Source: Scenedesmus sp. ARA3 (Eukaryota; Chlorophyta; Chlorophyceae; Sphaeropleales; Scenedesmaceae). From it: a stretch of 64,000 nucleotides of DNA. How positions within the stretch are numbered: the stretch's first letter is position 1; each line of letters starts with the position of its first letter. The notes under the pieces were generated by a model. That model saw only the letters and a list, made by a program, of their open reading frames with translations, was not told the origin of the DNA and made no database searches. Positions 58 through 61,500 of this stretch are shown here, one piece after another. The DNA is taken from assembly GCA_004335835.1 (NCBI GenBank), contig RWJK01001421.1, positions 1-64,000 on the forward strand, in the 5' to 3' direction. The translations under genes and the position numbers were made by a program.

Positions 58-1324
58 GCCATGGAGCTGCATGCACGCTTTGTGCGGTCCGCGCTGCTGA
101 AGGACCCTTCGCTGCTGCCGCCCGAGTATGCAATGCTGGACTTCAAGCAGCCTCCCTTCAACGCTGCGCCTAGCAACACCTGGGCCTTTGACATCAAGTG
201 AGAGGCACACTGTGCTGAGGGTTGTAAGATCTGAGGTTGCAAACATGTTGCCTGGTATGAAAGTATAATGTACATGTGTGTGATGCTGGTCTTCGGGCAG
301 CGACCCTTCAGCAGCGCACCCAGCAACACCTGGACCTGTCACAACTAGTGAGAGGCACGCTGCTGCGCTGCGGACTAGCTAATTTGGTGTATACGCCAAT
401 GTTTCAAGGTGTACTGGATTGTACTGTATCACTGCTTTGGAGTAGTCTGCAAGAGAGCTTGCCTGCGACTGCAGCATCAACCACGCTGGCTGTTGAACTG
501 GACCTGCCTGTGGTGCTGTTACGATGTGTGCTGTTTTCATGCTGCAGGGACCAGGTGTGGCGCTGCACCAAGGACGGCACCAGCAGCGTGCTCAACGACC
601 CACGCAAGTTCCTGCGCGAGTGAGTGGGCCAGCCGGCAACTGCACCACCTAAACAGTGCATGTTGCGCCACAGCAGCAACACTGCTGTCAGTGCTGTGTT
701 GCTCCTAGCCGATGCATGCTGTGCAGATGGCATTTGTAAAGGGAGATTTTTCTTTTTACAACAAACTGTGCATTTGTGTTGACTGGACAGCCGTGCGCCT
801 TGGCACCAAGAGCAGCAACAGCTGCACCTCTCATGCAATCTCTCACGTCCCCGTCGCTGTGCTGTGCTGCAAATAATGCGAATGTGGCGCAGCATCGGCT
901 TCCTGCCTGCTGCCTGGGAGGTGGGCTACAACCATTTTGCTGGCCGGCTGGGGTTGGCCATGCCTGAGACGGCGGCAGTGCTGCAGGCCTACTGGCCAGA
1001 GTGGCAGGTGCGCGAACGCAATGATGTTGTGCGTAGTTTGACTGCAAGCAGCCCTTGCAGTGCGCACTGCATGCTTCTGACGTGTTGATGCATGCTGTCC
1101 AATGTTTGAGCGCTCTAGCGCTATATGCGTCCTGCAAGCACATCCCTGTGCCATGCGCCATGGCGACAGACTGCGTAGCAGGACACACTAGGGATAATCA
1201 TATTATCCTTGAGATATTCGACAAATAATTGAATATCCCGCGAGATAAACACAGCCTGGCGTCTGTAGGAACTGCGCTACGCTTCAGTCCAATAGTGTGC
1301 TGTAAACCTGGTGACATGAGCTCA

Positions 1325-1361
<37 letters not shown>

Positions 1362-1467
1362 CTCCCAGGAGTTCCACTGGGGCCTGGGCAGCCTCACACA
1401 TGGCGACACGGCAGGCCTGCTGTGGCGTGCGGGGGTGAACAGCGCGCTGCAGCCCCCTGCAAGCTAG
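58..1467 (+). CDS. Unrecognised protein, 3' part (four exons)
   Basis: I do not recognise this protein with confidence. Four exons chain in phase: 58-197, 548-619, 893-1007 and 1369-1467, ending in TAG at 1465-1467. They are bounded by AA|GTGAGA, GA|GTGAGT and CAG|GTGCGC donors and by CTGCAG, GCGCAG and CTCCCAG acceptors. The encoded tail of about 141 residues contains WAFDIKDQVWRC, WEVGYNHFAGRLGLAMPET and EFHWGLGSLTHGDTAGLL. The W-E-V-G-Y-N-H-x-x-x-R-L-G-L-x-x-P-E-T stretch recalls, from memory only, the C-terminal part of some alginate-lyase-like proteins; treat that as a weak guess. The 5' end lies outside the window. The third exon is the least certain because its acceptor (GGCGCAG) has a poor pyrimidine tract. 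The gene converges on the JMJD6-like gene downstream. Confidence 0.5.
300..355 (+). repeat. Tandem copy of an exon 3' end plus donor
   Basis: This stretch repeats the end of the exon at 58-197 and its donor: CTTCA..GC(A/G)C(C)..AGCAACACCTGG..CT followed by GTGAGAGGCAC, as at 150-207. The copy carries a stop in the original frame (CTAGTGAG), so it looks like a decayed junction duplicate inside the intron. Confidence 0.6.
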
Positions 1468-2660: not shown

Positions 2661-5600
2661 TCAACGCTGCTGCTGCAGCTGCTGCTGCTGCAGCTGCTCC
2701 TGCAGCTGCTCCTGCCGCTGCTCCTGCAGCGGTTGCTGCAGCAGCTGCTGCTGCGCTTGCTGCTGCTCCTGAAGCGGCTGCTGCTGCTCCTGCTGCTGTT
2801 CCTGCTGCTGCTCCTGAAGCGGCTGCTGCTGCTCCTGCTGCTGATCCTGATGCTGCTCCTGAAGCGGCTGCTGCTGCTTTTGTGCTACTGCCGCATCAGC
2901 ACCAGCAGCCGAATCACCAACTTGGTCCTTGCTGCCATCAGCAGCGGCCTTCCGCCGCTTAGCCTGCCTGCTGCTGCCGCCATCCCCCGCCTCACTATCC
3001 GAGCTGCTGCTGCTGCTGCTGCTCCCGTTGCTGCTACTACTGCTGCTACTGCTGCTGCTACTGCTGTTGCTGAGCTGCGCCGCCCCCTGCGCATCTACTG
3101 CGTCAGCAATCGCCGCCAAATCCGGCCGCTGCTGCCGCAGCGCAGCCAGCAGCTTAGCACTCATCTTGGGCCGGCCTTTCCGCGTATGCCTCCAAGCCGT
3201 CTCAAAGTTGCTGCTGCTCACATAATTATGTGTAACTGCAATTGTGAGGTCAAGATTCAGCACTGCGTGCCACCAGCCATGCGGTACAAACACTGTTTCA
3301 CCAGGCCGTTGAATGAGGTCTAGGGGTTTGGCGGTTGGCCAGTCCGGCTGCTGCGTGCGCGGGTAGACTTTGCTGAACCAGCTGACTGCTTCTCGCTCCA
3401 GGCCGGGCTCCTTGGGCAGTATGTGCTGCACGGATTGATGTGGATGGATGTGTTGGTGGCGGTGGGGAGATGCAAAGAAATGTGGTGTCAGAACAAGCAA
3501 GAATGATTGCTAATTACTCTGGCACGTGAGGCCGGGCTCCTTTGGGAGTATGTGCTGCAGCGGTGGATGTGTGGCGGTCGGAAGACGTGCAGGAAAGAAC
3601 AGGACATGTCAGTTGAGATGGTTCTTCAATGGTTGATGGGAAGTAACTGCTGCCACTACTGCCGCTGCCGCTGCTGTCGCCGCTGCTGCCGCTGCCACTG
3701 CTGCTGCTGCTACCACTGCTGCTGCTGCCGGCCTCACCTCTCTTGGTGTGCCTGGCGGGAACAGCGCCCAGCGCTTGTGCCCAGCCAGCAGCGCATTCCA
3801 GGCGCTGGTGGCCAGCGGGTCTACATGCAGGCCTGTGCCGCTGCGCGCCGGTCCCATCACAAACCACCTGCAAGTGCAGCGCAGAAGTGTGGCACAGCGC
3901 AACATGCTGTGGGATGGAGTGGCACGCATGTAGTCAGCCTCCGCATTGCAGCATGTCACAGCTGCGTCTTGACGACTCGCAGCTCAGCATTGGCATAGTC
4001 TAAAAACACCAATCAGCGATGCACAGAACCTATCGTTACAACCTGCTGCTGCCAAGCACAGCGTCCACAAACATGTACGGCGGCTGCCGCAGCTGCCCTG
4101 CCGGCTGGAACAGATCCTCCGGAAACAGTCTCGTCGCAGCATACTGCGTTGCCAGCACTTGGACAGACAGCAAACAACACCCACAGTAACAGCAGCAGCG
4201 ACATCACTGCCACCACCACCGCTACCAGCAATGACCGGTTGTGAAGGTTTTGTTGTAGCTGCTGCACTTTGCGGCAGCTACAACAAAACCTTCACAACCA
4301 GTCATTGCCAACAAACACATCAAACTTCCGCTCAAGTGCAAGCACTGCAGCAATTCCCACTAACCTATACGGCGGCCGCCGCCGCTCCCCTGCCAGCTGG
4401 AAGAGGTCTTCTTGGAACAGCCCTGGCACACCGTACTGGCGCTTCATTGCTTCAACAGAAAGCAAACAACACACCCAGTAACAGCAGCAGCAACACCGCC
4501 GCCACCGCTAGCACCTGGTGCAAAGCGTAACGGCCACAGCAGCACCCCAACAACCAGATCCTGCCAGCAGAAACACGAGTCTGTACACACGAGGTCAATC
4601 ACTGCAGAATTTGCACCAACCTGTATGGTGGCCGCCGTCGCTCCCCTGCCAGCTGGAAGAGGTCTTCTTGGAACAGCCCCGGCACACTGTACTGCTGCTT
4701 CATTGCTGCGCTGCCGCTGCGGTCAGCAAAGGTGCCATCGAATATGTACAGGGGGCTGTCATCTGCGCCTGCGTGGTGGGGGTAGGCGCAGTAGCGCAGG
4801 AAGTGCTCAAAGCGCAGTCGCACTGCGTAGCCGTCATCGTCGGAGCCGACCTGCGTGTTATAACATGCATGCGACATTGCAAGGTCACAGTTTATGACTG
4901 AGGCCAATCAAGGCATGCACAAGTGTGTTTTGCAGATGCAGCGGTGTCTGTGTGTGGTACAATGATCGCCAGCGTTTGGAAGGGTATGGTAAATGAAGGC
5001 AGCCAATTCACCAAAACCACGCATGGACTCTTTCAAGTAGCATTTTAGCCTATCAGGAGTGAGGGTGATACAGGCGGACGGGATAAGATGTTGCAAGAAT
5101 TACACTGTTGCAGTAACATAGGAGGAGCACATCTGACCATGCAAACTCGGCCCGCACGGCAGCTGACACAGCAGCAATTACACATCTCTTCCTGCAAACC
5201 ACCCACCTTGAACTTGTGGTCCCGGAACTGCTGCAGCAGCGCCTGCGGCGTCCACTGCTGCGCTGCCGGCCACGCCTCTGTCAGGCCTGTTATGACAACC
5301 GGCTGCCGCGGCGCCTCAAAGAGCTCGATGAAGCGCTCTGAGGTGAGGTCCTGTGGCCAGCAAAATAACAGCAGAGCAATAAACCAGAAGCAGGAACATC
5401 CCAGCCAGAGGAAAGCCAGCAGTGAAGTCCTGTGGGCAACAAAACGACAGTAATACTATGAAACAAGTGACGGAGCAGCATGCTGCAGTTGCAGTTCAAT
5501 GAAGCGCTCTGAGGTGAGGTCCTGTGGACAGCAAAACAACAACATGGCATTAAACAACAAGCAGGAGCATCCCAGCCAGTGGGAAGCCTCTCTGTCCCTC

Positions 5601-6063
5601 CCCCTCAGGCAGATGCTGTTTAGGCACAGCCACCACTGCCACAGCCGCCGTACTACAAAGTGTCACTCACAGAGATGTGTATGCGCGGCACGCTGTCCTG
5701 CAAGCCCTCTAGGCTGAGGATGTCCGACTGCGCGTTCTGCACAACAGCACATTGCTACTAGGTTTGCTGCAATTGGCCGTCCAGCTGCACTACAGGACTG
5801 CAGGTCACATGTCCTGCTGCCTTGCAGCTTCTCCCCTCCTCACACAGAGCAATTGCTGTTTAGGCACAGCCACCAATGCCACAGCGGCCGCACCACAATT
5901 ATATGCACTCACGGAGATGTGTATGCGAGGCACGCTGTCCTGCAAGCCTTCTAGGCTGAGGATGTCTGACTGCGCGTACTGCTGCCGCTGCCACTCGCCG
6001 CGGCTCACGCTCAGCTCGCTGCGCGCTGCGCGCTTGGCGCTGCGGATCTTGTGCTGCACGTAG
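2661..6063 (-). CDS. JMJD6: JMJD6-like JmjC oxygenase (first exon not found)
   Basis: Likely Fe(II)/2-oxoglutarate-dependent nuclear oxygenase of the JMJD6 family (lysyl hydroxylation or arginine demethylation of RNA-processing proteins in animals). Exons on the minus strand: 6063-5913, 5350-5207, 4850-4621, 3867-3738 and 3425-2661 (TGA), phases consistent, 472 codons plus an unseen start exon. In order the protein shows the N-terminal [14 protein letters not shown] segment, [45 protein letters not shown], then [20 protein letters not shown], which supplies the iron ligands H-x-D, and [17 protein letters not shown], which supplies the distal His. A poly-Ser tract follows the catalytic domain, as in animal JMJD6, then a KRRK basic patch and a long Gln-rich tail. 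Exon ends are duplicated in tandem at nearly every intron. The 5' exon must end in phase 2 upstream of 6063. Confidence 0.88.
3534..3561 (-). repeat. Copy of JMJD6 last-exon acceptor region
   Basis: On the minus strand the intron contains CTGCAG|CACATACTCCCAAAGGAG, which repeats the true acceptor and first codons at 3430-3405 (GTGCAG|CACATACTGCCCAAGGAG, His-Ile-Leu-Pro-Lys-Glu). It is a second, upstream 3' splice site with the same downstream peptide. Confidence 0.7.
4072..4155 (-). repeat. Diverged third copy of JMJD6 exon 4 end
   Basis: Minus-strand translation gives [18 protein letters not shown], matching the functional [18 protein letters not shown] at 4621-4700. The donor position reads AT|GTTTGT instead of AG|GTTGGT, so this copy may no longer work as a 5' splice site. 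Confidence 0.75.
4231..4305. repeat. Near-perfect 32-bp stem hairpin in a JMJD6 intron
   Basis: The left arm 4231-4262 and the right arm 4274-4305 are reverse complements with one mismatch (ATGAC[C/T]GGTTGTGAAGG...), separated by about 11 nt. It sits between two copies of the exon 4 end, inside the intron before the catalytic exon. The arm length and loop size resemble a small-RNA precursor, but nothing in the sequence proves processing. Confidence 0.85.
4365..4458 (-). repeat. Second copy of JMJD6 exon 4 end with intact donor
   Basis: This encodes [20 protein letters not shown] then ERRRPPYR on the minus strand, almost identical to the functional [20 protein letters not shown]. It keeps a usable donor in the same phase (TATAG|GTTAGT). 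The start of exon 4 (GSDDDGYAV) is missing, so the copy is a 3' fragment in the intron. Confidence 0.85.
5405..5535 (-). repeat. Two copies of JMJD6 exon 3 acceptor region
   Basis: The true exon 3 begins CCACAG|GACCTCACCTCAGAGCGC at 5350. Upstream on the minus strand the same junction recurs at about 5530-5497 (CCACAG|GACCTCACCTCAGAGCGC) and, more diverged, at about 5440-5410 (CCACAG|GACTTCACTG). All three keep the CACAG|GA acceptor. Confidence 0.75.
5618..5740 (-). repeat. Copy of JMJD6 exon 2 end with donor and intron flank
   Basis: This repeats 5857-5990. Minus-strand translation gives [20 protein letters not shown], identical to the functional exon 2 end, followed by a GTGAGT donor. Flanking intron sequence (TGCTGTTTAGGCACAGCCACCA on the plus strand) is duplicated too, so the unit is about 120 bp or more with an offset of about 240 bp. 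Confidence 0.85.
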
Positions 6064-7917: not shown

Positions 7918-10900
7918 TTACATGCGCGGGCTAGCCCCTGCTGCCACCACGTGGTCGTAGCAGAGCGTGGTGAGGAAGTCGCTGTAGTCGCCTCCGCTGA
8001 TGGTGCCAGCCAGCAGCCGCTTCGCCAGGTCAAACTTGGAGGCAGAGAACTTGGCCTCGCCCAGATGGCTGCGGCAGCAGCAGCAGCACCGGCACAGGTC
8101 AGAAGGAGACATGGCGTGTGCTGTATCATGACATCCGCTGCAGACAACGGCCACACACAGGCCAACCCACACCAGGCCGGATCTGTTGCCTCCAAGCAGA
8201 TTCCTGCAAGCAGCTTCCTGCAAGCAGCTTCCTGCAAGCAGCTTCCTGCACGCAGCTTCCTGCACGCAGCTTCCTGCACGCAGCTTCCTGCTAGCAGAAT
8301 CCTGCAAGCAGCTTCCTGCAAGCACTTTCCTGCAAGCACATTCCTGCAAGCGGTTTCCTGCAAGCCCGCCGCCCACCTCCTGAACTTGGCCACCTCCTCC
8401 TCCAGGCACTGCGCCACCCACTCCTTGGTGATCACGCGGCCATTGCTTGTGCGCGCGTTGTGGCGCACCCACTGCCACAGCTGGCTGCGGCTAATCTCTG
8501 CTGTGGCCGCGTCCTCCATGAGGTTGTGGATGGGCACGCAGCCCACGCCGCTGCAGGACAGAACAGACCGGCGGGCAGATGCAAGGTGAGGATTGTAAAC
8601 AGCTGCGAACTTGAGTGGTTATATCCAATGTGGCTGCATCATCCATGCAGTTGTGGATGGGAACGCAGCCGACGCCACTGCAGGACAGAACAGATGGGCA
8701 AGCAGAAGCAGGATGGTAATAGAAGTGAGATGAAGCGGCACTATGCCAGCGCTCCATGTTAGCCAGCCACGTTGGAAGTCGCCCCTACCACATCAACATA
8801 AGCATGACAAAAGTAACAGAATTCAAACGCACCTGAGCCAGCTCTCCATGTAGGCCAGCGCCACGTTGAGGTTGCCCCTCACACCCTCCTCAGTGATGCT
8901 GCCAGGGAAGTTGATGTTGAGCAGGTCTGCTGCGCTCACGCTCACGTCCTCGCGCCGCTTGAACAGTTGGTTGCACTGCAGGAATGGCGCGGCCACAGCA
9001 GGGCAGCAGAGTCAAGCACACGAGGCACATCTGTACACATCAGCATAGCTGGTTTAGGTTCGCTGATTAGCTGTGCGAAGCTAGCTCTCCCAAGGGAGCA
9101 GCAAACACTGCTCACTTGACATCCTGCACCGACCTCATGCGCCTGCTGCATCTCTGCCGGCATCCAGGCAGCACCGTAGTAACAATTTTGTAACAGCGTT
9201 TGAATTTCGCCCCCACCTGTGGCATGTACTTGTTATACTGCTCCATGGCGATGCCCACCAGCGCGGGGTGTGCCACCCATGAACCGTCATGGCCCGCAAT
9301 AGCCTCCCGCTGCTTGTCAGCGCGCACCTGCAGCCACGCCCCACACAGAAACAATGACACAATAAGGCATGGTGCATTCGTTTCTGCCTTGTGCATCCCT
9401 TTGTAAGTCGCAGCAACCCTGGTTTTTGGATCTGCACCAGCACCTGCCCAGAGCATTGGTGACTCTGCTGGAGGGCAGCAACAACAACAGCGAATGACAG
9501 CAGCAGCAGCAGCAGCGCCGCAACTTGGCCAGCGCTGACTCATTGGCTGCTGCGTCTCCCTTTTGACGGGGATCCGATAACATGCACTGCATGCCATGAC
9601 GCGCAAAACACTGAGGGCAGCAACAGCAGTCATGTTGATACAACCGCCGCACCTTTGCCAGTGCTGCCTCGTTGGCTGCTGGGTCTCCCTTGATGGGGAT
9701 CCAAACATGCACTGCATGCCAGAACACTAATCAAGGCCAGCAACAGCAGTCAGGCTACAAGCACAACCTTACCTTGGCCAGTGCTGCCTCGTTGGCTGCT
9801 GGGTCTCCCTTGATGGGGATCTGTGCTGCCATGCCACCCATGGCGTGCACGCCGCGCTTGTGGCAGGTCTTGATCAGCAGCCGCACATACGAGTCCATGA
9901 ACGGGCTGGTCATTGTCACATCAACCCTGCGCGCAATTGTGTGTTCAGATTTTGGTTATGCAGACATCATAGCCGTTGCGACGCACAGCAAGGCGCACAA
10001 GCAGAGCAGATGCCACTTGCAAGCAGCAGGAAGCAACCGTATGCGTCCATGCAAGGGGCTGGTCATGGTCAGATCAACCCTGCGGGTGATTAGGCAACAA
10101 ATATCAACCAGATGTAACAGCCGCTGCCATGCAAGAGAGCATGCACAACAATGCTTATAGCACGCCGCTCCAACCAAAACACAGCAGCATCGACGCATCA
10201 AAGTACACTTCAAACGCTTTCCCGCCAAACCCACCGCTGCGCACCTGTTGGGCAGCACCTTGTCCGGGTGGTTCCTGAACTTCTTGATGAACGAGAAGAT
10301 GTAATCCCAGCGCCCGCAGTTGAGCCCGCTGCTGTGCTGGCGCAGCTCGTAGATGATCTCCTCCATCTCAAACGCAGCAGTGATGGTCTCAATGAGCACC
10401 GTGGCGCGAATGGTGCCGCGCGGGATGGACAGCATGTCTGCAAACAAAGGCGCATGCAGCAGCAGAGCCCAGTGTTGTTGAGACGTCGGAAGTGATCGTT
10501 TCAATAATGCACGATGCGGGGTGGGATGGACAGCACGTCTGCAAGCGGAGGCGGATGCAGCAGCGGCGCATAGTGTAGCAGCGTTGGAAGTGATGCTGTG
10601 CTGGCGCAGCTCGTAGATGATCTCCTCCATCTCAAAGGCAGCGGTGATGGTCTCAATCAGCACCGTGGCGCGAATGGTGCCGCGCGGGATGGACAGCATG
10701 TCTGCAGGTATAGTTACACAGCAGAGCACAGCAGCAGAGCACATCATTCAGGTGCTGCAACATGCGCGGGCAGATGAGTGCAGTCTGACCGGACATCGTG
10801 ACAAGCAAGCAAGGTATGGGGCTGCTGCTGCTGCTGCTGCTGCTGCTTCGCTCCACTGCAGCAGCATTCACCGTGTGGCGGGTTGAACGAGTTATTCCAC

Positions 10901-13153
10901 TGCTGCTGCTGCTGCTGCTGCAGCTGCTGCTGCTTAACACCATGCCCTCTCCCTCTCTACAACCACCCACCCTGTGCCAGGTTGAAGGCATCATTCCACA
11001 GCCGCGCCTCCAGGTGGCTCTCCATCTTGGGCAGTTGAAACTACTGCAAGCAATGCTATGACCATACAGCTGCTCCATCTGCTCCTGCTGCCTGTATCAT
11101 TCATTCAGCGTACCATTTTCATATGTGTTAACAACCAGCCACTCACCCTGTGCCAGGTTGAAGGCGTCGTTCCAAAGCCGCGCCTCCAGGTGGCTCTCCA
11201 TCTTGGGCAGGTAGAAGTAGGGGCCAATGCCCGCAGCCAGGCTCTGGCGCGCATTGTGGAAGAAGTAGAGCCCAAAGTCAAACAGGCTGGCGCTGGCCGG
11301 CTCGCCGTCAACCATCAGGTGCTTCTCCTCCATGTGCCAGCCGCGCGGGCGCACCTGCGCGGGCAAGCAAGCAATGTTACCAGCAAGCAGCAGAGAATAT
11401 GGTCAGCGTTGGGGTGCGATCAGTACACAGTAGCTGACAGCAGCAGATGCTTCTCCTCCATGTGCCAGCCGCGCAGGCGCACCTGCGAGGGCAAGCAAGC
11501 AACAATAGAGCAAGCAGCAGTGAGAATGAATAAACTTGGGGCGCGTACATACTACACAGCTGCTGACGGCAGCGGGTGCTTCCCCTGCATGTGCCGGCAG
11601 CGCGGGTGCACCTGCGCGCGCAAGCAAGCAAACAATAGCAGGAGGAGGCCAAGGTTGTGGAGGGACTGCGGTTGATTGCTGATCGAGTGGTGCTGCATGT
11701 AGAACGCCATTCCTGCAGCAACCTGCAACACGAATGCACTTGCACAGCTGCACCAGCAACACCGCTGCTCACCTCAGCAGCAGCAGGGGTGCAGCAACGC
11801 CAGCAGCTGCGTCAACAGCACACAGCAGGTCAGCAGGGCAACGCCTCCCCGGCCACAGCACCAACAGCACAAGACAGAACCCCACATACGCTATGCGACA
11901 CAGCAGCAGCATCGCCAGCTCACCAGCAGTGTTGCCAGCTGGTTCTCTGGGCCCAGGCGGTACTGCTTGCCGTTGGGTGCATCGAAGACGATGGTGCGGC
12001 GGTTGGCGTCCCTCAGGTTGACCTGGCCATCCATGTTGTTGGCCCAGGTGGGCGCGTTGGAGTCTGTTGTGTGGGGCGTGTTTGGGGTTTGCAGGTGCGG
12101 TGAGGCAGGGGTGAGTGAGGCAGGGATGAGTGTGTGATGTGTGGAGGTGCTGCTGTGAGCAAAATCAACTGCTGCTGGGTTCCTGGTAGCACTTGCTAGG
12201 CATGCAGCAGGGGTGTGTCAGGTCAAAACAGATGCAGGTCAACAGAAGGTCACTTTGTGATATTTGACCCAACAATTTAAGTGCCAAACTAAGATCAGAC
12301 GTGCTCAAAGAGTGGTGAGTTTAGCTGCTGCTGCAAGTGCCTAGGGCTTCCTGCGTGTGCGTTGACAGTGTGTGGGTTGCTGCTAGCCAGACACCCAGGG
12401 CGCCTCTTCTGCAGCAGCAATGCCAGCCGCTCTGGCAATCAGGCAGCATGCGCACTGCGTAGAGCTTCCCATTTGCTTCCTCAACCTCTACTGCACGTTG
12501 TCTGTGCCTGGCCTGACCGTTGCCTTGTCACCAATATGGCTGATTCGGCCGTTCGCTGCCGTTTGGCTGACGTACTACTGCTGTGCTGCGGGCTCACCCT
12601 CGAAGTCTGCCATGAAGCAGGATGCACCGCTGTTGAGTGCGTTAATAACCATCTTGCGGTCCACTGGGCCCGTAATCTCCACACGACGATCCACAAGGCC
12701 GGGAGCTGGCGGTGCTCCCTGCCACGTCGGATCATCGCGGATGTTGGCTGTCTGGGGCAGGAAGTCTGCAACGTAAATGTGTAAGTTTGACTTAATGATT
12801 GATGCGCATCTGCTGCTGGCGATCAGGCTGCCACCAACAGAGTGCCAGGTTGACAAACAGTCATCAGCAGTAATGCACGTGTATTCTAAGCCATGTCTTG
12901 TCCCTGCCGACTCCGAGATGCAATAAAACTGATCTATGTTTATCTGGTTTGCCCTTGCTGTCTTACCTGGCAGCTGCCCAGCATCGATTTCATACTGGCG
13001 CATCACCCTGCGGTGCAGCAGCTCCTTGCGCCTGCCATTGAAGCAGCGGTGCAATGTAGCCACGAATCGCTGTGCCTCGACCGTCAAGATCTCTGCATGC
13101 TCAGCTGTGCAGGTCCCGAGCACCTGAACTCCCGGAGCACACTGGATAGGCAT
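7918..13153 (-). CDS. Malate synthase
   Basis: Condenses acetyl-CoA and glyoxylate to malate in the glyoxylate cycle. Ten minus-strand exons: 13153-12967, 12765-12598, 12063-11924, 11354-11147, 10437-10245, 9926-9773, 9327-9217, 8975-8833, 8550-8377 and 8068-7918 (TAA). They join in phase to 542 codons, the usual eukaryotic length. Recognisable blocks: [33 protein letters not shown] with [45 protein letters not shown] followed by [16 protein letters not shown] (the family signature); [35 protein letters not shown]. The ATG at 13153 is the first in-frame one that gives the normal N-terminal length. The C-terminus is -SPRM, resembling a weak PTS1 peroxisomal signal rather than SKL/SRL. At least five introns hold tandem copies of neighbouring exon ends. 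Confidence 0.93.
8199..8366 (-). repeat. 14-bp x 12 tandem array in a malate synthase intron
   Basis: Twelve units of 14 bp (plus-strand consensus CTTCCTGCAAGCAG) begin about 10 bp inside the donor of the intron between exons 9 and 10. On the transcript strand each unit reads GCTTGCAGGAAGCT, so each carries a TTGCAG|G acceptor-like motif. A 42-bp (three-unit) period makes a 14-residue peptide repeat if the intron is retained, and the frame of exon 9 stays open through the whole intron. Confidence 0.9.
8630..8800 (-). repeat. Copies of malate synthase exon 9 start and exon 8 end
   Basis: About 8690-8632 repeats the exon 9 acceptor and first codons (CTGCAG|TGGCGTCGGCTGCGTTCC, Gly-Val-Gly-Cys-Val-Pro-Ile-His-Asn). 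About 8800-8745 is a decayed copy of the exon 8 end around AACGTGGC..GGCTAACATGGAG. Both lie in the intron between functional exons 8 (8975-8833) and 9 (8550-8377). Confidence 0.75.
9515..9705 (-). repeat. Two extra copies of malate synthase exon 6 end
   Basis: The exon 6 end [15 protein letters not shown]| (functional donor at 9772) is repeated at about 9702-9655 with a GTGCGG donor and, more diverged, at about 9572-9518. Intron text (CATGCACTGCATGCCA) is repeated with it. The spacing of about 120-135 bp suggests successive tandem duplication. Confidence 0.85.
10590..10704 (-). repeat. Nearly identical copy of the malate synthase exon 5 start
   Basis: This 115-bp block differs from 10330-10444 at about three or four positions. 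It carries a TCTGCAG|ACATGCTG acceptor and encodes [20 protein letters not shown] and [14 protein letters not shown] before the frame leaves the exon. A shorter, decayed third copy lies at about 10505-10550. It is one of the youngest-looking junction duplicates in the window. Confidence 0.9.
10965..11038 (-). repeat. Copy of malate synthase exon 4 end
   Basis: Repeats 11140-11212. It encodes [20 protein letters not shown] with a following donor-like GGTGGGTGG on the minus strand. The functional exon 4 (11354-11147) ends in the same peptide. Confidence 0.85.
11446..11620 (-). repeat. Two copies of malate synthase exon 4 start
   Basis: The exon 4 acceptor and first codons (GCAG|GTGCGCCCGCGCGGCTGGCACATGGAGGAGAAGCA at 11354-11318) recur at about 11480-11448 ([11 protein letters not shown]) and about 11605-11572 (diverged). 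The period is about 125 bp. Confidence 0.8.
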
Positions 13154-14588: not shown

Positions 14589-15535
14589 TCACAGGCGGGC
14601 GGCTGGCTTTGCCGCTGCTGCTGCTGCCAGCCGAGCTACAGCCGCAGCCAGCTTGCCGTGTGCCTCATCATACAGCGCCGGCCCCACCGCTGCCCGCACT
14701 GCCGCCATCCACTGGCGCACTATGGGGTGTGGCGCCAGCAGCTGCTCCAGCTGCGGTTGACTGGGCTCAGCCACCATCATCCTGCAGCAAGTAAGTGTGC
14801 ATATGCGCAGGCAGCGAGCGCGACATCAAATTACGGGGCTCGTGCATAGCAATCGGGTGTGGCGCCAGCAGCTGCTGCAGCCACCATCGTCCTGCAACAA
14901 CAGCGCACACACACCGAAATATCTACCATGTGTTTGTGCTTAATAGTGGCGTATGGATTCGCATGTGGGTGGGGCGCTGGCAGCTGCTCCAGCTGAGGCT
15001 GACTGGGCTCAGCCACCATCATCCTGCAGCGACAACAGCGTGAACAAATGTGCAGCCAGCGAGCAGGATACTGCAGGATGTGTCTTTGACTATGGTGATC
15101 TGAGCGCTGGTCTTGTTACGACGCAAAAAGATCGGTGGTGTGTTTGTGCTCAATACTGTGAATACTGGGTTGGCAATTGGGTGGGGCGCCAGCAGCTGCT
15201 CCAGCTGCGGCCGACTAGGCTCAGCCACCATCATCCTGCAAACACATTGTGCACAAATGCGCAGCAAGCCAGCAGGGAGTTTGTGGTGTAGATCAAAGGT
15301 GTTATTGACAGACGTTTTTGACATGCGTAACTGCTCAAGGGTGCATTATATTGTTATTTGTTAGCTGACCAAGGCATGCTGCGTCCGTGCAATCAACAGC
15401 TATCCCACCTCAACTGCTCCAGGTCACACACGCACAGCAGGTCTGGCGTTGACACCTGCTGCCCTGTCAAGAAGGGCCGGCTGCCACCCCCCAGCCAGTA
15501 GGACTCCAGGTCCTTCAGTGCCTGCTGCAGCACCT

Positions 15536-15577
<42 letters not shown>

Positions 15578-15900: not shown

Positions 15901-15940
<40 letters not shown>

Positions 15941-18941: not shown

Positions 18942-18974
<33 letters not shown>

Positions 18975-20006: not shown

Positions 20007-20042
<36 letters not shown>

Positions 20043-20166
20043 AGGCGCTGGGCAAGGTGATGGGTGCTGAGCTGCCTCACAGCCCAGGTGGCAGCGATGT
20101 GGTGCTGTTGTGAGCCAATCATAAATCTATGTTTTAAACCCCTGCTGCTGCTGCTGCTGCTGCTGC

Positions 20167-20202
<36 letters not shown>

Positions 20203-21703: not shown

Positions 21704-21764
21704 TTACAGTAGTGTTGAAGTCAACCAATATATCTGCGAGCGTTGTTCTGGTGGTTGCAGCAGT

Positions 21765-52609: not shown

Positions 52610-55600
52610 CTACCAGATAGGCTTGCCGCCGCCGCCACCCCTGCTGCTCTGCTGACCCCTGCCCTCCCAGCTATTGCCGCCGCCGCCCTGCTTACCCTCC
52701 NNNNNNNNNNNNNNNNNNNNNNNNNNNNNNNNNNNNNNNNNNNNNNNNNNNNNNNNNNNNNNNNNNNNNNNNNNNNNNNNCTGAAGCCATCCCTATCCCT
52801 GCCCCTGCCGCCGCCGCCGCCACGGCCGCCGCCACCCCTGCCCCTGCCGCTGTCACCCCAGCTTCCCCTGCTGTCGCCCCTGTCTTCCCAGCCGCCTTGC
52901 CTGCCGCCGCCCTGCCTATCCCGGCTGCCCCAGTTTCCGCCGCCGCCGCCGCCACCACCATCCCTATCCCGGCCGCCGCGGCCGCCGCCGCCCCTGCCGC
53001 CAAACGACCTACGGGGGCTAAAGCTGCGGTCTGACATGGGTGGCCTGCCGCCGCGCCTGCCTAGCACCAGCTCCTTGACATCTAGCGGCAGCGAGTTGGG
53101 CTTGCTGACCAGCACACCCTGTGCCTCTGCGTCTGCTGCTGCTGCTAAGACGGCAGCAGCGGTGCGTGCGGGCAGGTCAACTGCCACTCCCTCCACGTCT
53201 GGGCCCTCATTCAGGATGCGCAGCTTGCCGATCTGGCCATTGAAGCTGGCACCCAGCAGCTGCAGAAACAGAGGGATTGCAGAAAACAGAGCACCAGACG
53301 CAGCACAAGTCAGACCAATGATCAGACTGATGAGGGATGATGAATGGGTAGCTGCAGCTGATGCAACATGCATGCATATACATTGTCAATAATATTGCAG
53401 GAAGCTGCAGGCTGCACATACACACACCACAAGAGCGCTGCAGCGCTGCACCGCGCAACATCTGCTGCTTGACAGACACGATGCAAGTGTATACACCACT
53501 GCCTGGCACACATCCTCACGCACGACCAACACACAAGAACATGCAGAACCAGCCAAGCTCAACCATCCAGCCATACATCACTCACCCCTCCCAGGAAGCG
53601 CGCGGTGCTGTTGAAGCCATCCAGCTTGCCCACGCTGCCCAGCATCTTGATGGTCACCATGCCCACCTCGCCAGTCAGCAGGCTGCGCTCCTGCGCCACA
53701 GTCCTGCAGCAGCAAAAAACGCAGGAGGCAGGCAGGAAGAAAGTGGTGAGAAGAAATGCGGTGGTATGGGGCTGACGGGCAACAACGTACATATGCACCG
53801 CAACAACTCTGCTGCTCAGGAAGCTAATCACACGCTTGGACAACGCATGATATGCAAACTGCATACAAAATCTCGCAGCAAACCCAGACAACCAACCCCA
53901 CCTGAACCCAACATGCCATTGCCCCCCCCCCCAGCCATCAGAATCAGCAAGCTGCATCTAAACCATCTGCAGAAACCGCCCCTACCTGAAGCCCGACATG
54001 CTGGCCAGTGCAGCCGCCAGCACGCGCTCCGGCTGCGGGCTGTTCATCAGGCGGCTGGCGGCCGGCATGAAGAAGTCAATCACGCCTCCCTCCACCTTGT
54101 CCAGCTTTGACAGCACGGTGCGGCTGGCTGCTGCCATGACGTCAGCTGGAGAAGGTGCGCCGATGACCTCGCCACTGGCCAGCTTGACCTGCAAGAGGAG
54201 CAAAGTCAAGCACAGCACATAAGGTTGACTGGCTCACTGAAATACAGTTTAAGAGTTTGCAGGAACCACATCAGCTGGCAGTCAGCTGCATGCGATCACA
54301 TACGCCTGATGCGCGCAGGCAGAACACAGAAAACACTAATTAAAAAAAGACACCATGCTCTGCACACACACAGCAGCAGCAGCAGCTCGCACCTGCTGCA
54401 GCAGCAGTCCCAGGCTGCGCGCCTCTGAAGGCGTGTGCATCACCACAGCGCGCCCCTTGTTGCCCGCCCTGCCCGTGCGCCCGCTCCTATGCAGGAAACT
54501 CTCACTGTCCTGCGGGATGTCATAATGCACCACCAGGTCCACATTCGGAATATCCAGCCCGCGCGCTGCAACATCTGTGGCAATCAGCACGGTCACTTCT
54601 CCGCTACGGAAGCGTCCAAGCGTCTTCTCGCGCTGGTTCTGCGCAATGTCGCCGTGAAGCGCCTCGCACGGCTGCTGCTGCGAGATGGCTGCTGCGACCT
54701 CGTCCGCGCCGAGTTTGGTGCGCGTGAAGATGATGGCCTTGCCGCCAGCTGCGTAGACGGACAGCAGGTCGACCAGCGCCTGGCGCTTCTCGTGGTTGTT
54801 CACCTGTTGCAGGAGCAGCACATTACAAGATCAGTGTGGATGCAGAGTGAGGATAAGGGCGGCTGGGGAGAAAAGCAAGCCGCAGGGTGTTGGACGGATG
54901 CTGCACGGCAAGCGCACCATACGCACATCAGGCATGCTGATCGCACGGCCGCAAGCCACGCCAAGGCAGCCACCATTATTTGGCAGGCGGGAGCAGCGGC
55001 TGGAGTACATTGCAGTGTGTTTCCCGCATTACAGGAGTTGAAGCTGCTGAGGCGGCACTGCAATTTGCCCATTTCAGTGCCGCCTCAGCAGCCCTAACTC
55101 CTGTAGCCTGCATTGCTTGCTGCTCTGCATTCCTGTAACCTGCCTACTTGCTGCTCTACATTCCTGAAAGGCCACCTCTACTTCTATGTAATTTAATGCC
55201 GGAAATACCGCGGTACTACACTGCAATGTACTCCAGCCGCTGCCCCTGTGCCTGCCCACCTGCATGATGTTAAGTGTCACGTCCTCGTTAAGCTTGCCCG
55301 TCTGGTGCTCTCCGACCAGGTCAATTGTCCTGGGGTCCTTCTGGTAGCGCTTGGCCACCTTGCTCACCCAGCTGGGCAGCGTGGCACTGAACAGCATGGT
55401 CTGGCGCTCAGCAGGCATCTGGCACAGCATCACAAATATAACACACATACAGCAGATACAAGTTTAGCAAGCTGGACAAGCGGGCAGCGTGGCACTGTAA
55501 CAGCATGGTCTGACACTCGGCAGGCATCTGGCGCAGCAGCACAAGCAAGTAACATACAGCAAATAGATTTCAGCGAGCTGGCCAGTCACACGCAGCCACA

Positions 55601-58055
55601 TGCCTGATAGCTGCCGTGTGCTGCATACACAGCTACCAACCCACCCAGCGGCACTTGCTGCATCACAACTGGCACGCTGCATCTGCAACCAGCCACATGG
55701 CTGCCAGGTGATGGGCAAGTGGCAATGGAATTCCCACCAAACCGCGCGCTTGCATGCTGCTTACAGCAGCACCACACACCCCACCAGCAGCCGCACCTGC
55801 TGCAGGATGACCTCCATGTCTTCCTCAAAGCCCATGTCAAGCATCTGGTCGGCCTCATCAAGCACCACAAAGCGGACCTGTGAGTTACAAAACAGCAGAC
55901 GCAAACAAAGTCAGCAAAGGCTGTCACATTGTGCATGGCAAGCTCACGCTGCAGGTCGCTGCTGCAGGTTGGTGCTGCGAGGCTGTAGTTGCTAACGTAT
56001 CCGGCCGCTGCACTTGCTGCAGCAACAGTGCAATGCTGCGCCCACCCGCTCCTGCTGACACATCTACTGCCCTGTCTACAGAACCGTACAGCCGCTGCCC
56101 TACCGCTGAACCTGCCCTACCGCTGCAGCAACAATCCACTACAATGCTGCCATCCAACGTGATCCACCAACTCATGTCCGCACCTGCTGGCCGTTCAGCT
56201 TTTTCCTGTCCAGCAGGTCCATCAGCCTGCCTGGCGTCCCCACCGCCACCTCGACATCATCATGCAATGCTAACATCTAACAAATACTCGCATCAATCCA
56301 CCACCTCGTGTCCGCACCTGCTGGCCATTCAGCTTCTTGCGGTCCAGCAGGTCCATCAGCCTGCCTGGCGTTCCGACCACCACGTCCACGCCCCTGCGCA
56401 GCGCCTCAATCTGCGTCATGATGCTGGTGCCGCCGTAGAAGCTGACAACAGTCAGGCTGGGGCACACCGAGTTAAACTCAGAAGCCACCTGCTTGGCCAG
56501 CTCGCGTGTGGGGGCCAGAATGAGGCACCTGCGCAGCAGCAGCAGCAGCAGCAAGGATAAGGCAGAGGCAGGGCAGGCAAAAGGTCAACACGTTGAGGTG
56601 ATGGCTGTGGAGGCTGTGAACAAGTAGTCATGTACTAGTGTGTGTGCATGAACAGCCCACAGGTGACAACAGCAAGCACAAACTTGCATGTCGACTCCCA
56701 ATTGCAGCAGCAGCAGCAGCGCCACACCTTGGGGGCCTGCCAGGGGCCTTCCTGCTGCCCCGCGCCTTGTCCTCTGCCAGCAGGCTCTCCACCACAGGCA
56801 GCGCAAACGCGAGCGTCTTGCCGCTGCCTGTCTTGGCCCTGCCGATCAGGTCAGTGCCCTCCATGGCTGGCTGCAGCACCTGCCTCTGGATGGGGAAGAG
56901 TGAGGCAATGCCGCGGGCCTTGAGGGCACGCACGGTCTCCTCAGAGAGGCCGAGGTTGTCCACTAGCAGGCTGGGGTCGATTGCCACGACTGATGGTGTG
57001 CAAGAAACACAGAAAATAGAACAGGCAGTAGCAACGGTAGTGAGCTGATCTTGTGCAACTGTGGACATGCAAAGCTGGGTACTCTTTGCGTACAACACGA
57101 GCATAGAAGCCGCAGCCAGGCAAACACGTGTGCAAAAATAGCAGTGCTGCCACTGCACACAAAGCAATGCTGCTGTCATGCCCCAACACCACCAATGGCT
57201 TCCTTCATGTGGTTTGCTGTCTGCCTGCTGTCACTACAATAACCCCCTAGCCGCACGACATGCGCATGCTCAGCTGCCTGCCTGCCTGCCTGCCTGCATA
57301 TGTGAGTGTGCAAGTAGTGCGAGTAAGCTGCACTTGGCTGCGTGGCTGCTCACCCTCCTCGTCCTCATCGATGAAGTCCTCCTCAAACTCATCCTCTCCC
57401 TCCTCATCCATTAGAGAGGCAAAGCTGGCCTCTGCTGCAGGAGGATCAGCCTGGCAGTGCAGCAGTGCAGCAGTGCAGCAGAGCGGCGACAAACAGAGAC
57501 TGAGGACGGCATTTGTCAGCAGTAGTTGGCAGGTGCAGCAGGCGGCAGCGCTGGGCTAGCTGCACAGGAGCCAGTGGGGGCTCTTTTGAGCTCGTTGAGG
57601 TCAAACTACGAAGCACAGTGCGTGATAGAGCAGTGACTGTTGGCGCATGATGGACTGGAGGGCCACATTTTGCAGAAACCCTTCAGACCACATGTGCACT
57701 GCTGCCAGCCTCAGGCTAGCGGCCCATGCGGGGCCCCTAGCCTGCCGCACGCTTTGCTGTCACATTGTCATCAACAAACTGTCTAAAATAAGCCACATCT
57801 AAAGCACTATCATCACTCAGCAGCCGCGAACACCGAGAGTGCCGTCTTAACAAGTGGTCCGTAATGGCAGAGCTACTCAACACCCACCAGTGCCGCATAC
57901 TGGCGCACGGATGTCCTCTTTTGATGATGCCTCGCGACGTGCTGTGGTGTGCAGCGAGCACTGCTAGCTGCTTTCGGCACGACAGCCCTCCTGCAAGCCA
58001 CTACCCTGGCCTGCAACTTGAGCATACATGACTTTTGGCTGAACAAAGCAGCCAT
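52610..58055 (-). CDS. RH3: Chloroplast RH3-like DEAD-box RNA helicase
   Basis: ATP-dependent RNA helicase; the plant homologue acts in plastid intron splicing and ribosome assembly. Minus-strand exons: 58055-57888, 57450-57354, 56989-56728, 56528-56318, 55877-55797, 55418-55260, 54803-54393, 54188-53986, 53703-53586 and 53259 to about 52610. Exon 1 is a transit peptide ([20 protein letters not shown]..). An acidic stretch follows, then the helicase motifs: FPIQRQVLQ (Q), AKTGSGKT (I), APTRELA (Ia), GTPGRLMD (Ib), VLDEADQML (II), LFSATLP (III), IIFTRTK (IV), [15 protein letters not shown] (V) and [10 protein letters not shown] (VI). The GUCT-type domain ([22 protein letters not shown]) and an Arg/Gly-rich tail follow, ending [12 protein letters not shown]. 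Exon 10 crosses an 80-N gap, so its length and frame there are uncertain. Confidence 0.92.
52701..52780. other. Assembly gap (80 N) in the RGG tail of the helicase
   Basis: An N run interrupts the last exon within GGC/CGG-repetitive RGG coding. With exactly 80 bases the frames on each side do not agree, so the gap size is an estimate. Confidence 0.98.
54987..55243. repeat. Long foldback inverted repeat in a helicase intron
   Basis: The left arm (about 54987-55060, AGCAGCGGCTGGAGTACATTGCAGTGT ... CTGAGGCGGCACTG) is the reverse complement of segments at 55075-55101 and 55217-55243. The right arm carries about 100 bp of extra sequence, itself made of CTGCATTCCTGTAACCTGC-like repeats. The inner stem around 55034-55101 has a loop of about 14 nt. 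It sits in the intron between exons 6 and 7. Confidence 0.85.
55485..55535 (-). repeat. Copy of helicase exon 6 start
   Basis: On the minus strand GCGCCAG|ATGCCTGCCGAGTGTCAGACCATGCTGTT repeats the true exon 6 head (GTGCCAG|ATGCCTGCTGAGCGCCAGACCATGCTGTT at 55418). A one-base insertion puts the copy out of frame after Met-Pro-Ala-Glu-Cys-Gln-Thr-Met-Leu. Confidence 0.85.
56161..56258 (-). repeat. Copy of helicase exon 4 end with donor
   Basis: This encodes [20 protein letters not shown] followed by GTGCGGACATGAG, repeating the functional exon end and donor at 56395-56297. Motif Ib is therefore present twice on the pre-mRNA. Confidence 0.88.
57281..57298. repeat. (CCTG)n microsatellite
   Basis: Four to five CCTG units lie in the helicase intron between exons 2 and 3. 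Confidence 0.75.
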
Positions 58056-58540
58056 CAGATGTGTTGTGGTGCGTTTGCCTGCTCAATGTGTGGTGGCAAG
58101 TGGTGGGCGCACGACACAGATGGGAGACAGGCTGAGAAATGTATGAAACCAGAGTCAGTCCAGGGAAGTGATGTTTAAAGAAGCCCTGGACCTGCCTGCG
58201 CGCCACTTTGCACCGTTGTCAGAGGCGAGCGGTTCATGGTTCTTGCCAATGTTTCCTGTGCTTGTTTTGATATGCCCTGAAAACAAATAAGAAAAGTCAG
58301 AGTATCATCAAATTGTATTTCTGTGCTGCTCTCTTGTATTCGCTTGTGTCGGAGTCACAGGCGAAAGTTGCCGGCACAGTTTTTTCCGCTAAACGCCGAG
58401 CATCTGGGTTGTGGAAAAGCGGCAGACACCGCTTCAACATTTCGCGCTCACGTGCACACTCATATACACAAGCTCACCGCTTTCGGCAGTGATCTTTGTC
58501 AGCAAGAAACTTGCTCCGGCCGCGCAGCGCAGCAAGCACA
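58056..58540. promoter_or_regulatory. Short divergent promoter between helicase and PARP-finger gene
   Basis: The two start codons are 485 bp apart and point away from each other, so both promoters should lie here. There is an AT-richer patch at about 58259-58320 (AAAACAAATAAGAAAAGTC..CAAATTGTATTT). No specific element could be assigned. Confidence 0.5.
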
Positions 58541-61500
58541 ATGGCCGAGGAGACAACATATAAGATTGAATATGCAAAGTGAGTTGAAGTGCCTGGTACG
58601 GCCGGGTGCGACGGTAGCCGGGTGCAGGTGACCTCACAGCAGCGTCCTCCTGCCCTCTGCTTGCAGGAGTGCAAGGTCTGCCTGCAAGGGGCCCAAGGGA
58701 CCTTGTGAGGCAGTGTCCGCAGACCGCAACATTGCAAAAGGTGGGCTGTGCAGCTGTTGTGGGCAGCCAGCTGATCTGGCAGTGAACAGGAGCTGCAGCG
58801 CAGGGCGCAGTTGTCATTTGCATCGCATGTCGCCTGCTCGCTGTCCTGCAAAGACCCTGTACCTTGCTTCATCCCCAAAGGTGCATTTGCTGCCCCTAAA
58901 AACAGGCAACCAGCGCCACTGCACTGCTGGCTGTGCTTTGTTGCACTGGGCTGGCACTATGCATAGTTGTGCTGTGCAGTGGGCAGCTTTCCACCTGGCT
59001 GCCAGCACCCACCCATCCACATGCACTTGCCAGCAAGTATGCTTCCTTTTTCATATTGCCAATGTTCAAATCAGCTGCCTTGCCTGCGCACTGACACTGA
59101 GAGCACAGTGGCTGGGGTTGCAGCAACGCAACTGCCTGCAGGGCAGCGCCTGCTGCAGCTGCTTTTGAGGATATCAGCATCTGCTGCTTCTGCTGTCATA
59201 GCAGTCACATAGTATGTGTTGTCAGAACCCACTCACTACCCTCACTGTATGTTGAGCTGAAGCTGCATTGACTCAACGATGCGTTTTACCGCCTGCGGCT
59301 GCTGCTTTGTCTGTATCCTGTGTGCTCACAGGAGAGCTGCGGCTGGGCACCTTTTTCACTGCCAATGGCCGCCCAGGGTCATCATGGAGGCACTGGTGAG
59401 CATTTCAAATGCCGTTACATAACAGTTACAGTGCATGAACTTGATGGCAAGGGCTGCGGCTGCTGTGTATTTTGGGGATGACCTTGCCGAGTCATGCTAG
59501 TGCCAAACAGTTCATATGCTGCTGCTCATATGCTAGCAGCTGCTGTGCGCAGCTCTGCCGTATGCTGATGACAGAGCAGCGGTAGCCACGTCGTGTGGGC
59601 TCGGCTGTTGCAGCGACTCCAGCATGGGTCGCAGTAGCAGTTGCTGTTGCGCAACCTGCTCAGCATCCTGTGCTCAAACTCTACTTGTGCTTTGGATGAT
59701 GCAGCAGCAGTGCTGCATGTGCCCACATGCTGCTAAGTGCGCAGAACACGTGCATTCCTGTGTTGTGGCGTGCGATGTGTCGCCAGAAACGTCTGTCCTG
59801 CAAGCTGTGGCATGCTTGCTGCCCTGCCACTGTGTCACAGCGCCGGCCTGCACGTACTACACCACCAACACTACTAAGACAGTGGTGCTCAGGATGCTGA
59901 ATCTCTCTCTTTTCTCACTCCAGCTCACCCTTCCTGCAGACCCTCCTTGACACCTCATTATGTTCCCCGCCAACTGTCTGTGTCTCTGCCTCATGCCGCA
60001 GGCCCTGCACTACTGCTGCTGCTGTGCAGGAGAGTATGGGCAGCAGCAAGGGCTTTCACACTTGCTGCACTGCTCTCGCCTATCTCACCCCAACACCTTG
60101 TCGTTACGCTTTTGTTTTTCTGCCGCAGGCGCTGCACCACTGCTGCGGTGCTGGAGAACATCAGCAGCAGCGACAAGCTGGAAGGCTTGACCTTTGCTGT
60201 ACCGCTTTCGCCCACCTCACCCCATCACGTTGTTGTTATTTGTCCATCCTGCAGGCGCTGCACCACTGCTGCTGTGCTGGAGAACATCGGCAGCAGCGAC
60301 AAGCTGGAGGGCTTTGAGGAGCTGAGCGAGGCTGACCAGGCCATGGTGCAGAAAGCACTGGAGACCAAGGAGCTGGAGCTGCCCGAGGACGTGGCAGAGG
60401 CACAGGAAAAGGTGCGGTTGTGTATATGCTATTGCACAAAGGCAGCTGCTGTAGTGCTGTAGAGGTTAACATACCAGGCCATGCTCAACAAGGCGCTGGA
60501 AACAAAGGAGCTGAAGCTGCCTCAGGACGTGGCTGAGGCGCAGGAAAAGGTGCGGTGTGCCACCTGTTGAGCCATAGCATAACCATTGTGGTGCAGTGTG
60601 CAGTGTGCTGTAATGTTGTGGCTCAGCGCCAGCTGCTGAAGTGCTGTGCATGTGGATGCGTGTGCAGTCGATGGTGCTGGAGCGGCCAGAGGATGTGGCA
60701 GAGGCACAGGGAAACGAGCAGTGGGCTGTGCTATGCTTAGCATGCTTGCCTACTGCAGTTGACTACATATAGGCGTGCACATCAGTGAGGTGAAGGAGTG
60801 ATTCAGGCTGCCCCGAAGCACACTTGCTGGCCTGGTTCTGTGTGTGCCGTCATCAAATGCCGCTGCCCGAGCACGGTGCGGCATGTTGTCAGCTCAACAC
60901 TGCTGCTGCTGCTGCTGCTGCAGGCCAAGAGTGGCGGCAAGTCCTCCAAGGGAGCCGACAAGGCTGCAGACAAGGAGGCAGCAAAGGCAGCCAAGGCCAA
61001 GGAGAAGGAGGAGGCCAAGGCGGCAAAGGAGAAGGAAAAGGAGGAGGGAAAGGCAGCGAAAGAGAAGGAGAAGGAGGCAAAGGCCAAGGCAAAAGAGGAG
61101 GAGAAGAAAGCAAAGGAGGAGGCAAAGGTGCGCTGCAGTGCTGCCTGGAGTGGCAGCTGTGTTGTATTATTACACGTGTGATTTGTTGTCTGTGGCACGG
61201 TCTATTATGCCTCCGAGGGGTTGCAGCAAGCTGCCCTTCATGCTCAATGCACATGCTATGCAGATGATTCACGTGCATATGGTGCATGCTGTGCTGCTGC
61301 CATTTCTTCCATACATTTGATAGTAAAACCATTTCTTCCATACATTTGATAGTAAAACCAACAAAGTACATCATACTGTGCATATTTTGCAGGCCGCCAA
61401 GGCCAAGGAGCGTGAGGAGGCTGCAGCAGCCAAGGCGGCAGCCAGCAGCCAGAAGAAGCGCAGCAGGCCCAGCAAGAAGAAGGGTGCGTGGCCTGCTGAC

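Follow-up and report, generated by a model that had tools for sequence, protein, structure and literature searches.

We analysed short duplications at exon-intron junctions in 64,000 nucleotides of the green alga Scenedesmus sp. ARA3, positions 1-64000 of contig RWJK01001421.1 (the window); the assembly comprises 87.3 Mb in 1567 contigs. The window carries 12 genes with 74 introns, which were curated by hand and in which a few boundaries are approximate. Curation was guided by homologues for UROS (uroporphyrinogen-III synthase), malate synthase and a JMJD6-like gene, and by splice motifs and open frames for the other genes; nearly all introns have GT...AG ends, with GTG and CAG predominant. 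The UROS protein joined from window exons shows 98% identity over 97% to the Tetradesmus obliquus protein P0121, and malate synthase is a 95% match to P0001, a JGI entry on a 2.4 kb contig; these matches make T. obliquus or a close relative the source. Pfam supports JmjC/cupin, GST, HEM4, thioredoxin, PARP-finger and MORN domains in the window. Three labels, RH3, M3 peptidase and PIP kinase, are presumptive and were given by the first-pass annotation from the look of the sequence, and LRR-like and NYN-like are what we take the remaining two genes to be from our own reading. Runs of N, which may be scaffold gaps or withheld letters, lie at 25433-25482, within a CTG repeat, and at 52701-52780.

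A blastn self-comparison (E <= 1e-3, copies within 1.5 kb, low-complexity matches removed) returned 46 direct pairs in 25 clusters, and 20 of these clusters touch a splice junction of the hand-curated exons. Eighteen were flagged automatically; the two further ones (9893/10045 and 25637/25826/25925) extend just 5 bp into the intron. The first-pass annotation had claimed that duplicated junctions recur in at least eight genes, in units that take in one side of an exon and range from nearly identical to eroded, and all of this was borne out. The eight genes it named are all affected; each of the 20 junction clusters holds one exon edge, so that none is a duplicated whole exon with both splice sites; and the best copies match at 100% over 35 bp (25654/25826) and, for the pair that had been called nearly identical, at 97% over 113 bp (10330-10442/10594-10706), the most eroded at about 70%. 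The junction copies sit in the adjoining intron. The units are listed below, with the identity of the copies and the period in bp.

133..362, plus strand: gene 1, donor-side unit 133-212 (65 bp exon and 15 bp intron), copy 283-362; 79%, period 150.
3400..3571, minus strand: JMJD6-like, acceptor-side unit 3400-3442, copy 3529-3571; 86%, period 129.
4065..4707, minus strand: JMJD6-like, donor-side array, donor at 4621, copies near 4357 and 4065; 71%, period 292.
5322..5588, minus strand: JMJD6-like, acceptor-side unit 5322-5417, copy 5493-5588; 86%, period 171; peptide present once in P0241.
5596..5982, minus strand: JMJD6-like, donor-side unit 5834-5982, copy 5596-5740; 87%, period 238.
8502..8710, minus strand: malate synthase, acceptor-side unit 8502-8583, copy 8629-8710; 84%, period 127.
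9516..9821, minus strand: malate synthase, threefold donor-side array, exon end 9773-9821, copies from 9645 and from 9516; 82%, period 129 (120 by Tandem Repeats Finder, TRF).
9893..10084, minus strand: malate synthase, acceptor-side unit 9893-9931, copy 10045-10084 with one single-base insertion; 90%, period 152.
10330..10706, minus strand: malate synthase, acceptor-side unit 10330-10442 (108 bp exon and 5 bp intron), copy 10594-10706, older copy 10515-10594; 97%; three synonymous and no nonsynonymous differences between 10330-10442 and 10594-10706; peptide present once in P0001.
10960..11210, minus strand: malate synthase, donor-side unit 11136-11210, copy 10960-11034; 93%, period 176; three synonymous and no nonsynonymous differences.
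11313..11638, minus strand: malate synthase, threefold acceptor-side array; 81-89%, period 128.
14722..15276, minus strand: GST, acceptor-side array of about four units; 70-93%, periods 130-454.
18887..19483, plus strand: UROS, donor-side array, exon end 18933 and about five intronic copies; 77-82%, period about 100; peptide present once in P0121.
20008..20271, plus strand: UROS, acceptor-side unit 20168-20271, copy 20008-20108; 93%, period 160; P0121 matches the downstream copy (HIPGG).
20605..21230, plus strand: UROS, donor-side array, exon end 20648 and about four intronic copies; 71-92%, periods 106 and 250.
21653..21963, plus strand: UROS, coding end, stop and 3' untranslated region (3'UTR) repeated, no splice junction; 70-92%.
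25637..25979, plus strand: thioredoxin, donor-side unit (exon end 25683 and GTGAG), copies 25826-25860 (100% over 35 bp) and 25925-25979 (87%).
55374..55584, minus strand: RH3-like helicase, acceptor-side unit 55374-55478, copy 55482-55584 with a single-base insertion; 82%, period 108.
56162..56389, minus strand: RH3-like helicase, donor-side unit 56296-56389, copy 56162-56255; 88%, period 134.
59992..60314, plus strand: PARP-finger, threefold acceptor-side array, exon start 60255; 78-80%, period 127.
60335..60722, plus strand: PARP-finger, donor-side unit, exon end 60411, copies 60473-60556 and 60673-60722; 84-85%.

The description of the units as covering a splice junction holds for most of them; one repeats a stop/3'UTR edge, and several arrays include much intron besides the junction. 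The five non-junction clusters include the start edge of a partial first exon at 6043, low-complexity PARP exons paired with each other at 62070, the Gly-rich tail of RH3 (exon-only, at 52628) and a single intron-only cluster, 61493/61609. In one JMJD6-like intron (5493-5740) donor-side and acceptor-side copies lie 7 bp apart and jointly resemble a nested exon end, a short 150 bp intron and an exon start. Tandem duplication of a whole intron with its bordering exon end and exon start fits this intron and was not seen in others; we rejected it as a general account.

Copies are found in 18 of the 74 curated introns, and these hold 37% of intron bases. Their median length is 566 bp (mean 548), compared with 298 bp (mean 305) for introns without a copy (p=2.7e-6). 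Published mean introns are 462 bp in T. obliquus, 230 in Raphidocelis, 302 in Monoraphidium, 284 in Chromochloris and 270 in Chlamydomonas (PMC5966456); the copy-free introns of the window are thus near the mean of these relatives.

Four window genes are unaffected: PIP kinase, M3 peptidase, LRR-like and NYN-like. No copy was found in the eight introns of M3 peptidase or the 13 of PIP kinase (21 introns together), as the first-pass annotation had noted when it suggested that gene or intron context may matter. The 12 genes are heterogeneous (p=0.013), but the heterogeneity, and with it that suggestion, rests on those two and is lost without them (p=0.27). Over 43 gene-finder genes (described below, window included), copy density declines with intron GC (Spearman -0.44, p=0.003, uncorrected) and shows no relation to GC at third codon positions (GC3) or to intron length.

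The comparison was extended to 24 other stretches of the assembly, chosen by contig number and numbered here with L (226 kb; 290 kb with the window). Exons in these were called by a home-made gene finder seeded with window exons (iteration-2 model). It over-calls copies as exons, which may inflate the junction class outside the window, and the window was therefore curated by hand. The pattern proved wider than had been noted: 61 of 86 clusters in the other stretches include a junction, one is intron-only, 20 lie outside predicted genes and four are exon/intron or exon/outside clusters that contain no junction. Of the 43 gene-finder genes, 26 carry one junction cluster or more. The load is uneven, with 16 clusters in L025, 12 in L026 and none in L011, L017 and L024. 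Near pairs at equal score over the 290 kb were direct in 236 cases and inverted in three (self-palindromes uncounted), and chance similarity is therefore negligible.

Enrichment was measured by moving the best pair of each in-gene cluster randomly within gene spans (period <= 400 bp), a test that took 22 of the 25 window clusters and 60 of the 86 elsewhere, the others being dropped. In the window, 12.0 junction, 5.3 intron-only, 1.3 exon-only and 3.4 exon/intron clusters without a junction were expected, and 20, 1, 1 and 0 were observed; elsewhere the expected numbers were 32.9, 15.2, 3.2 and 8.7, and the observed 56, 2, 0 and 2. Junctions are thus enriched over shuffled positions within genes, as the first-pass annotation had anticipated. 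A loss of exon-only clusters is expected from selection.

Other repeats in the same DNA are of different kinds. Five self-palindromes occur in the window, and palindromes or inverted repeats lie in JMJD6-like and RH3-like introns (4228-4308, 54982-55256 and 55030-55105). Intronic minisatellites at 8189-8365 and 61842-62109 have 14 bp and 41 bp units, unlike the 120 bp junction copies. A dispersed repeat of 70-75 bp at 48063-48137 matches L027 7708-7781 (97%) and L023 528-599 (85%), and L029 contains a large inverted repeat (124-1330 and 6367-7921, within 10 kb, 81-95% identity).

Across the window and the other stretches, donor and acceptor junctions are affected about equally (39 and 35), and copies are mostly displaced from their junction towards the intron: 58 of 60 donor copies downstream and 44 of 55 acceptor copies upstream. 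The spacing is narrow. The smallest period per cluster falls between 90 and 139 bp in 71 of 111 clusters and between 70 and 159 in 84, and a second hump appears near 220-260 bp among all pair periods. In the seven most similar pairs (95-100%), 20-108 bp of exon are copied with merely 5-13 bp of intron, which is little beyond the splice consensus. In other clusters the complete tandem unit is present, including 100-200 bp of intron (e.g. L026 482-823, 95%). Some arrays run head-to-tail (units of 120, 129, 99 and 250 bp), and single copies with diverged filler are not minisatellite-like. Ratchet or recursive splicing through ...CAG/GTGAG at the copies was considered for the lower limit of ~90 bp and set aside, as AG is missing from roughly every second donor exon end (it stands at the end of four of nine copied donor exon ends, PARP 63197 left out).

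Narrow spacing, the abrupt end of the most similar pairs just inside the intron and the rarity of intron-only clusters are what one would expect if duplication were aimed at exon edges. Breaks linked to transcription, R-loops, nucleosomes or splicing would be repaired by template switching in a quantum near 120 bp that copies the exon end and the splice consensus; conversion templated by the exon would keep the copies fresh, and exons would drive intron growth. We regard such a junction-targeted mechanism as possible but doubtful. The main result against it is the 20 of 86 clusters outside predicted genes, because of which the duplicating process may lack any aim at junctions. With the dust filter off these rise to 32 in the other stretches, and none appears in the intergenic DNA of the window. 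Their coding scores are intermediate (median 0.12, against 0.21 for junction clusters and 0.08 for an intron control), and three of the 20 exceed the intron 90th percentile, compared with 64% of junction clusters; some may belong to missed genes and some probably do not. The stop/3'UTR case of the window, the full-length tandem unit with 200 bp of intron in L026 and the residual tandem homology in the fillers, described below, also tell against aimed duplication.

The copies are free of coding constraint. Gaps that are not multiples of three make up 34 of 41 in exon parts and 179 of 229 in intron parts, and stops account for 15 of 1974 copy codons. In UROS, malate synthase and JMJD6-like, the three genes covered by this comparison, the duplicated peptides are single in related proteins: the UROS peptides VFLEGW...[20 protein letters not shown] and [13 protein letters not shown] each occur once in P0121 and have counterparts, each once, in the transcript-derived homologue P0122, and those of malate synthase and JMJD6-like are single in P0001 and P0241. 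Comparison with homologues thus indicates a message unchanged at the protein level for these three genes. Because of the frameshifts and the single peptide in related proteins, the copies resemble unused debris. Two transcript-derived UROS sequences of relatives, P0136 and P0150, diverge or stop at exon ends, after INTYNT and SAVK, in a manner like intron retention.

The first-pass annotation had inferred from its duplicated junctions that competing splice sites accumulate, a conjecture that the single peptides and the damaged frames do not uphold. Its remark that GT and AG are usually intact is correct as a count (GT in 49 of 60 donor copies, AG in 50 of 55 acceptor copies), but the mean exon-part mismatch of 10.8% would leave roughly this retention by chance, and intact dinucleotides therefore provide no extra evidence. 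That the copies are functional, as alternative exons or as splicing decoys under selection, is accordingly hardly credible, even though their exon parts are better preserved than filler and GT/AG mostly survive: frameshifting gaps and stops, absence from the related proteins of three genes and near-chance retention of splice sites all speak against it. Coding constraint on the copies, at which an excess of synonymous differences (see below) hints, was ruled out by the same gaps and stops. The copies might instead have been made in assembly, from allelic or overlapping contig ends joined in tandem. The N runs make the window probably scaffolded, and the copy spacing is near common k-mer and read lengths. 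However, divergence to 70-85%, frameshifts, stops and as many as five intronic copies in one array render an artefact highly improbable.

The fillers bear on how the copies began. In 27 single-copy junction pairs, filler was compared with the flank that a tandem duplication predicts, giving a mean z of 2.66 with 10 pairs above 3. The same fillers against random flank gave 0.81 with three above 3 (p=0.0025), and against the exon-side flank 1.06 with none above 3 (p=0.009); in 17 of the 27 no clear tandem residue was seen. Filler resembles the tandem-predicted flank, and tandem duplication of the full period is therefore the probable origin of the copies, the filler drifting later. Between two intronic copies, exon-derived sequence is 82-84% identical within 30 bp of the junction and 68-74% at 30-60 bp, filler is 56-61% beyond 20 bp, and an unrelated control is 51-56%. 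Exon parts were 92-100% alike in the pairs inspected for filler decay. Gap openings per site are 0.0066 in exon parts and 0.032 in intron parts. We think it likelier that gene conversion from the exon renews the exon part than that filler is much more mutable.

We therefore favour, with a probability of about one half, ordinary tandem duplications of about 120 bp that are filtered by selection and of which the exon-edge copies stay recognisable. Segments of roughly 100-150 bp would duplicate in tandem in and around genes. Those within coding sequence would be removed by selection; those at an exon edge would be tolerated, presumably because splicing stays with the original, outermost site, which is the first donor or the last acceptor, so that the copy turns intronic. 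Intron-only duplicates would decay on both copies, and exon-edge duplicates would remain recognisable through selection on the exon side. Gene conversion from the exon would probably renew both the copied exon sequence and its splice-site consensus, and leave the filler to drift. Introns would in this way lengthen by about 120 bp per step, and copies may seed arrays.

Several points weigh against this explanation. Gene models outside the window are predictions of the gene finder, gene conversion is an inference, and low-complexity fillers may simply be more prone to indels. Intron-only clusters are three of 82 in-gene clusters where about 20 were expected, or three of 79 intron-only plus junction clusters where a share of 0.31 was expected. 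With the dust filter off and simple repeats masked they are seven of 84, some of which, judging by coordinates, are short-period minisatellites or parts of junction arrays. A two-fold visibility of exon-bearing copies predicts an intron-only share of 0.18, and three of 79 falls short of it (binomial p about 1e-4). The differences between exon and copy also include too many synonymous changes for neutral divergence of a copy from a constrained exon, for which we reckoned an omega of about 0.5: 183 synonymous and 166 nonsynonymous differences in 67 clusters give 0.31 (bootstrap 0.24-0.39), with 0.21 in the window alone and 0.36 in the other stretches. A model in which copies are born at about 10% synonymous divergence gains 17 log units over the plain model, and one with a faster exon synonymous rate gains 11; plain conversion from the resident exon leaves the better fit of the former unexplained.

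The scarcity of intron-only clusters also counts against plain neutral tandem duplication with ascertainment and no gene conversion, in which copies that include exon can be recognised for about twice the time and filler of low complexity is lost faster. One constrained partner does yield a two-fold persistence, and the difference in gap openings between exon and intron parts is of the kind this would produce. We nevertheless consider it unlikely, as exon parts are 93-98% identical where the filler is unalignable by BLAST, and as an intron-only share of about 18% is predicted and three in 79 were found; in the window alone (one intron-only, 20 junction) the excess over two-fold visibility is not decisive.

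The synonymous excess has a further reading, in which a diverged allele or homologue may be the source of the copies, or a diverged allele that of their conversion. Unequal exchange between chromosomes that differ at roughly 6-14% of synonymous sites would give birth to copies already diverged. In agreement with this, the youngest pairs differ almost only synonymously (16 synonymous and four nonsynonymous differences in 14 clusters below 5% divergence), omega climbs with divergence (0.09, 0.25, 0.27 and 0.42), and the birth-divergence model has the larger gain. For pairs of copies, omega was 0.45 (0.34-0.58). The gain of the birth-divergence model is concentrated in the window, however (16, against 10.5 for the rate model), and is 3.7 against 3.5 in the other stretches. 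A search with one malate synthase exon found no second haplotype contig in the assembly, and neither that exon nor one filler has a second copy elsewhere in it. Birth from a diverged allele does not by itself explain the missing intron-only duplicates, and we think it very unlikely.

Independently of the choice among these explanations, the location, orientation and spacing of the copies, single peptide use in related proteins of three genes, the lack of frame constraint, tandem homology in the fillers and the longer introns are established. If tandem duplication filtered by selection is the true account, it would illustrate stepwise intron growth in a lineage with a published mean intron roughly 1.5 to 2 times as long as in related algae. 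The copies also amount to dozens of natural experiments, in each of which a gene faces two to six similar donors or acceptors and has to choose one, so that splice-site choice and the attraction of duplication by exon edges become testable questions.

Introner elements are a dispersed repeat family that alters introns genome-wide in algae and has a preferred size, and the copies described here are like them in both respects. The single filler that was compared with the whole 87 Mb matched only its own place, and for that filler an introner-like nature was rejected. A comparison of 83 fillers gave 102 short cross-locus matches; among the 20 listed, 18 came from one repeat-rich filler.

The first-pass annotation knew of no named mechanism, but one exists. 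Intron gain by tandem genomic duplication is well established (PMC3443670; PMC2891723), and the model is credited to Rogers 1989, Gao and Lynch 2009 and Hellsten et al. 2011, as cited in PMC4974935. As in that model, the alga has within-gene tandem duplication with duplicated splice signals, and the mature message may be unchanged, as it looks at the protein level in three genes: copies are direct, on the same strand and nearly adjacent, and their fillers retain tandem homology. The classical unit is exonic, and its AGGT supplies both new splice sites. In the alga the unit spans a junction that is already there, and the event requires no new intron; judging from homology and splice motifs, the copies lie inside introns bounded by used junctions. 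The closest precedent is the potato RdRp gene, in which a tandem duplication across an intron-exon boundary duplicated the splice signals (Ma, Lan and Niu 2016, PMC4974935); those authors also mention a tandem duplication of 83 bp inside an intron. Junction-crossing duplication that copies splice signals is common to both, but in potato one gene received a new intron, whereas here existing introns are enlarged in many genes. Novel introns from regional tandem duplications in Drosophila likewise involve partial exon duplication with splice motifs, one copy becoming intronic; the available text tells of few events at exonic proto-splice sites and does not describe repeated junction copies per intron (PMC2891723). 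Widespread junction copies in introns were undescribed in the titles and abstract openings found, a search outside which most subscription papers fell. Together these comparisons suggest that the event is of the same kind as in potato and Drosophila, and that what differs in the alga is its recurrence, its centring on junctions, its narrow step, the exon-biased preservation of the copies and the lengthening of existing introns.

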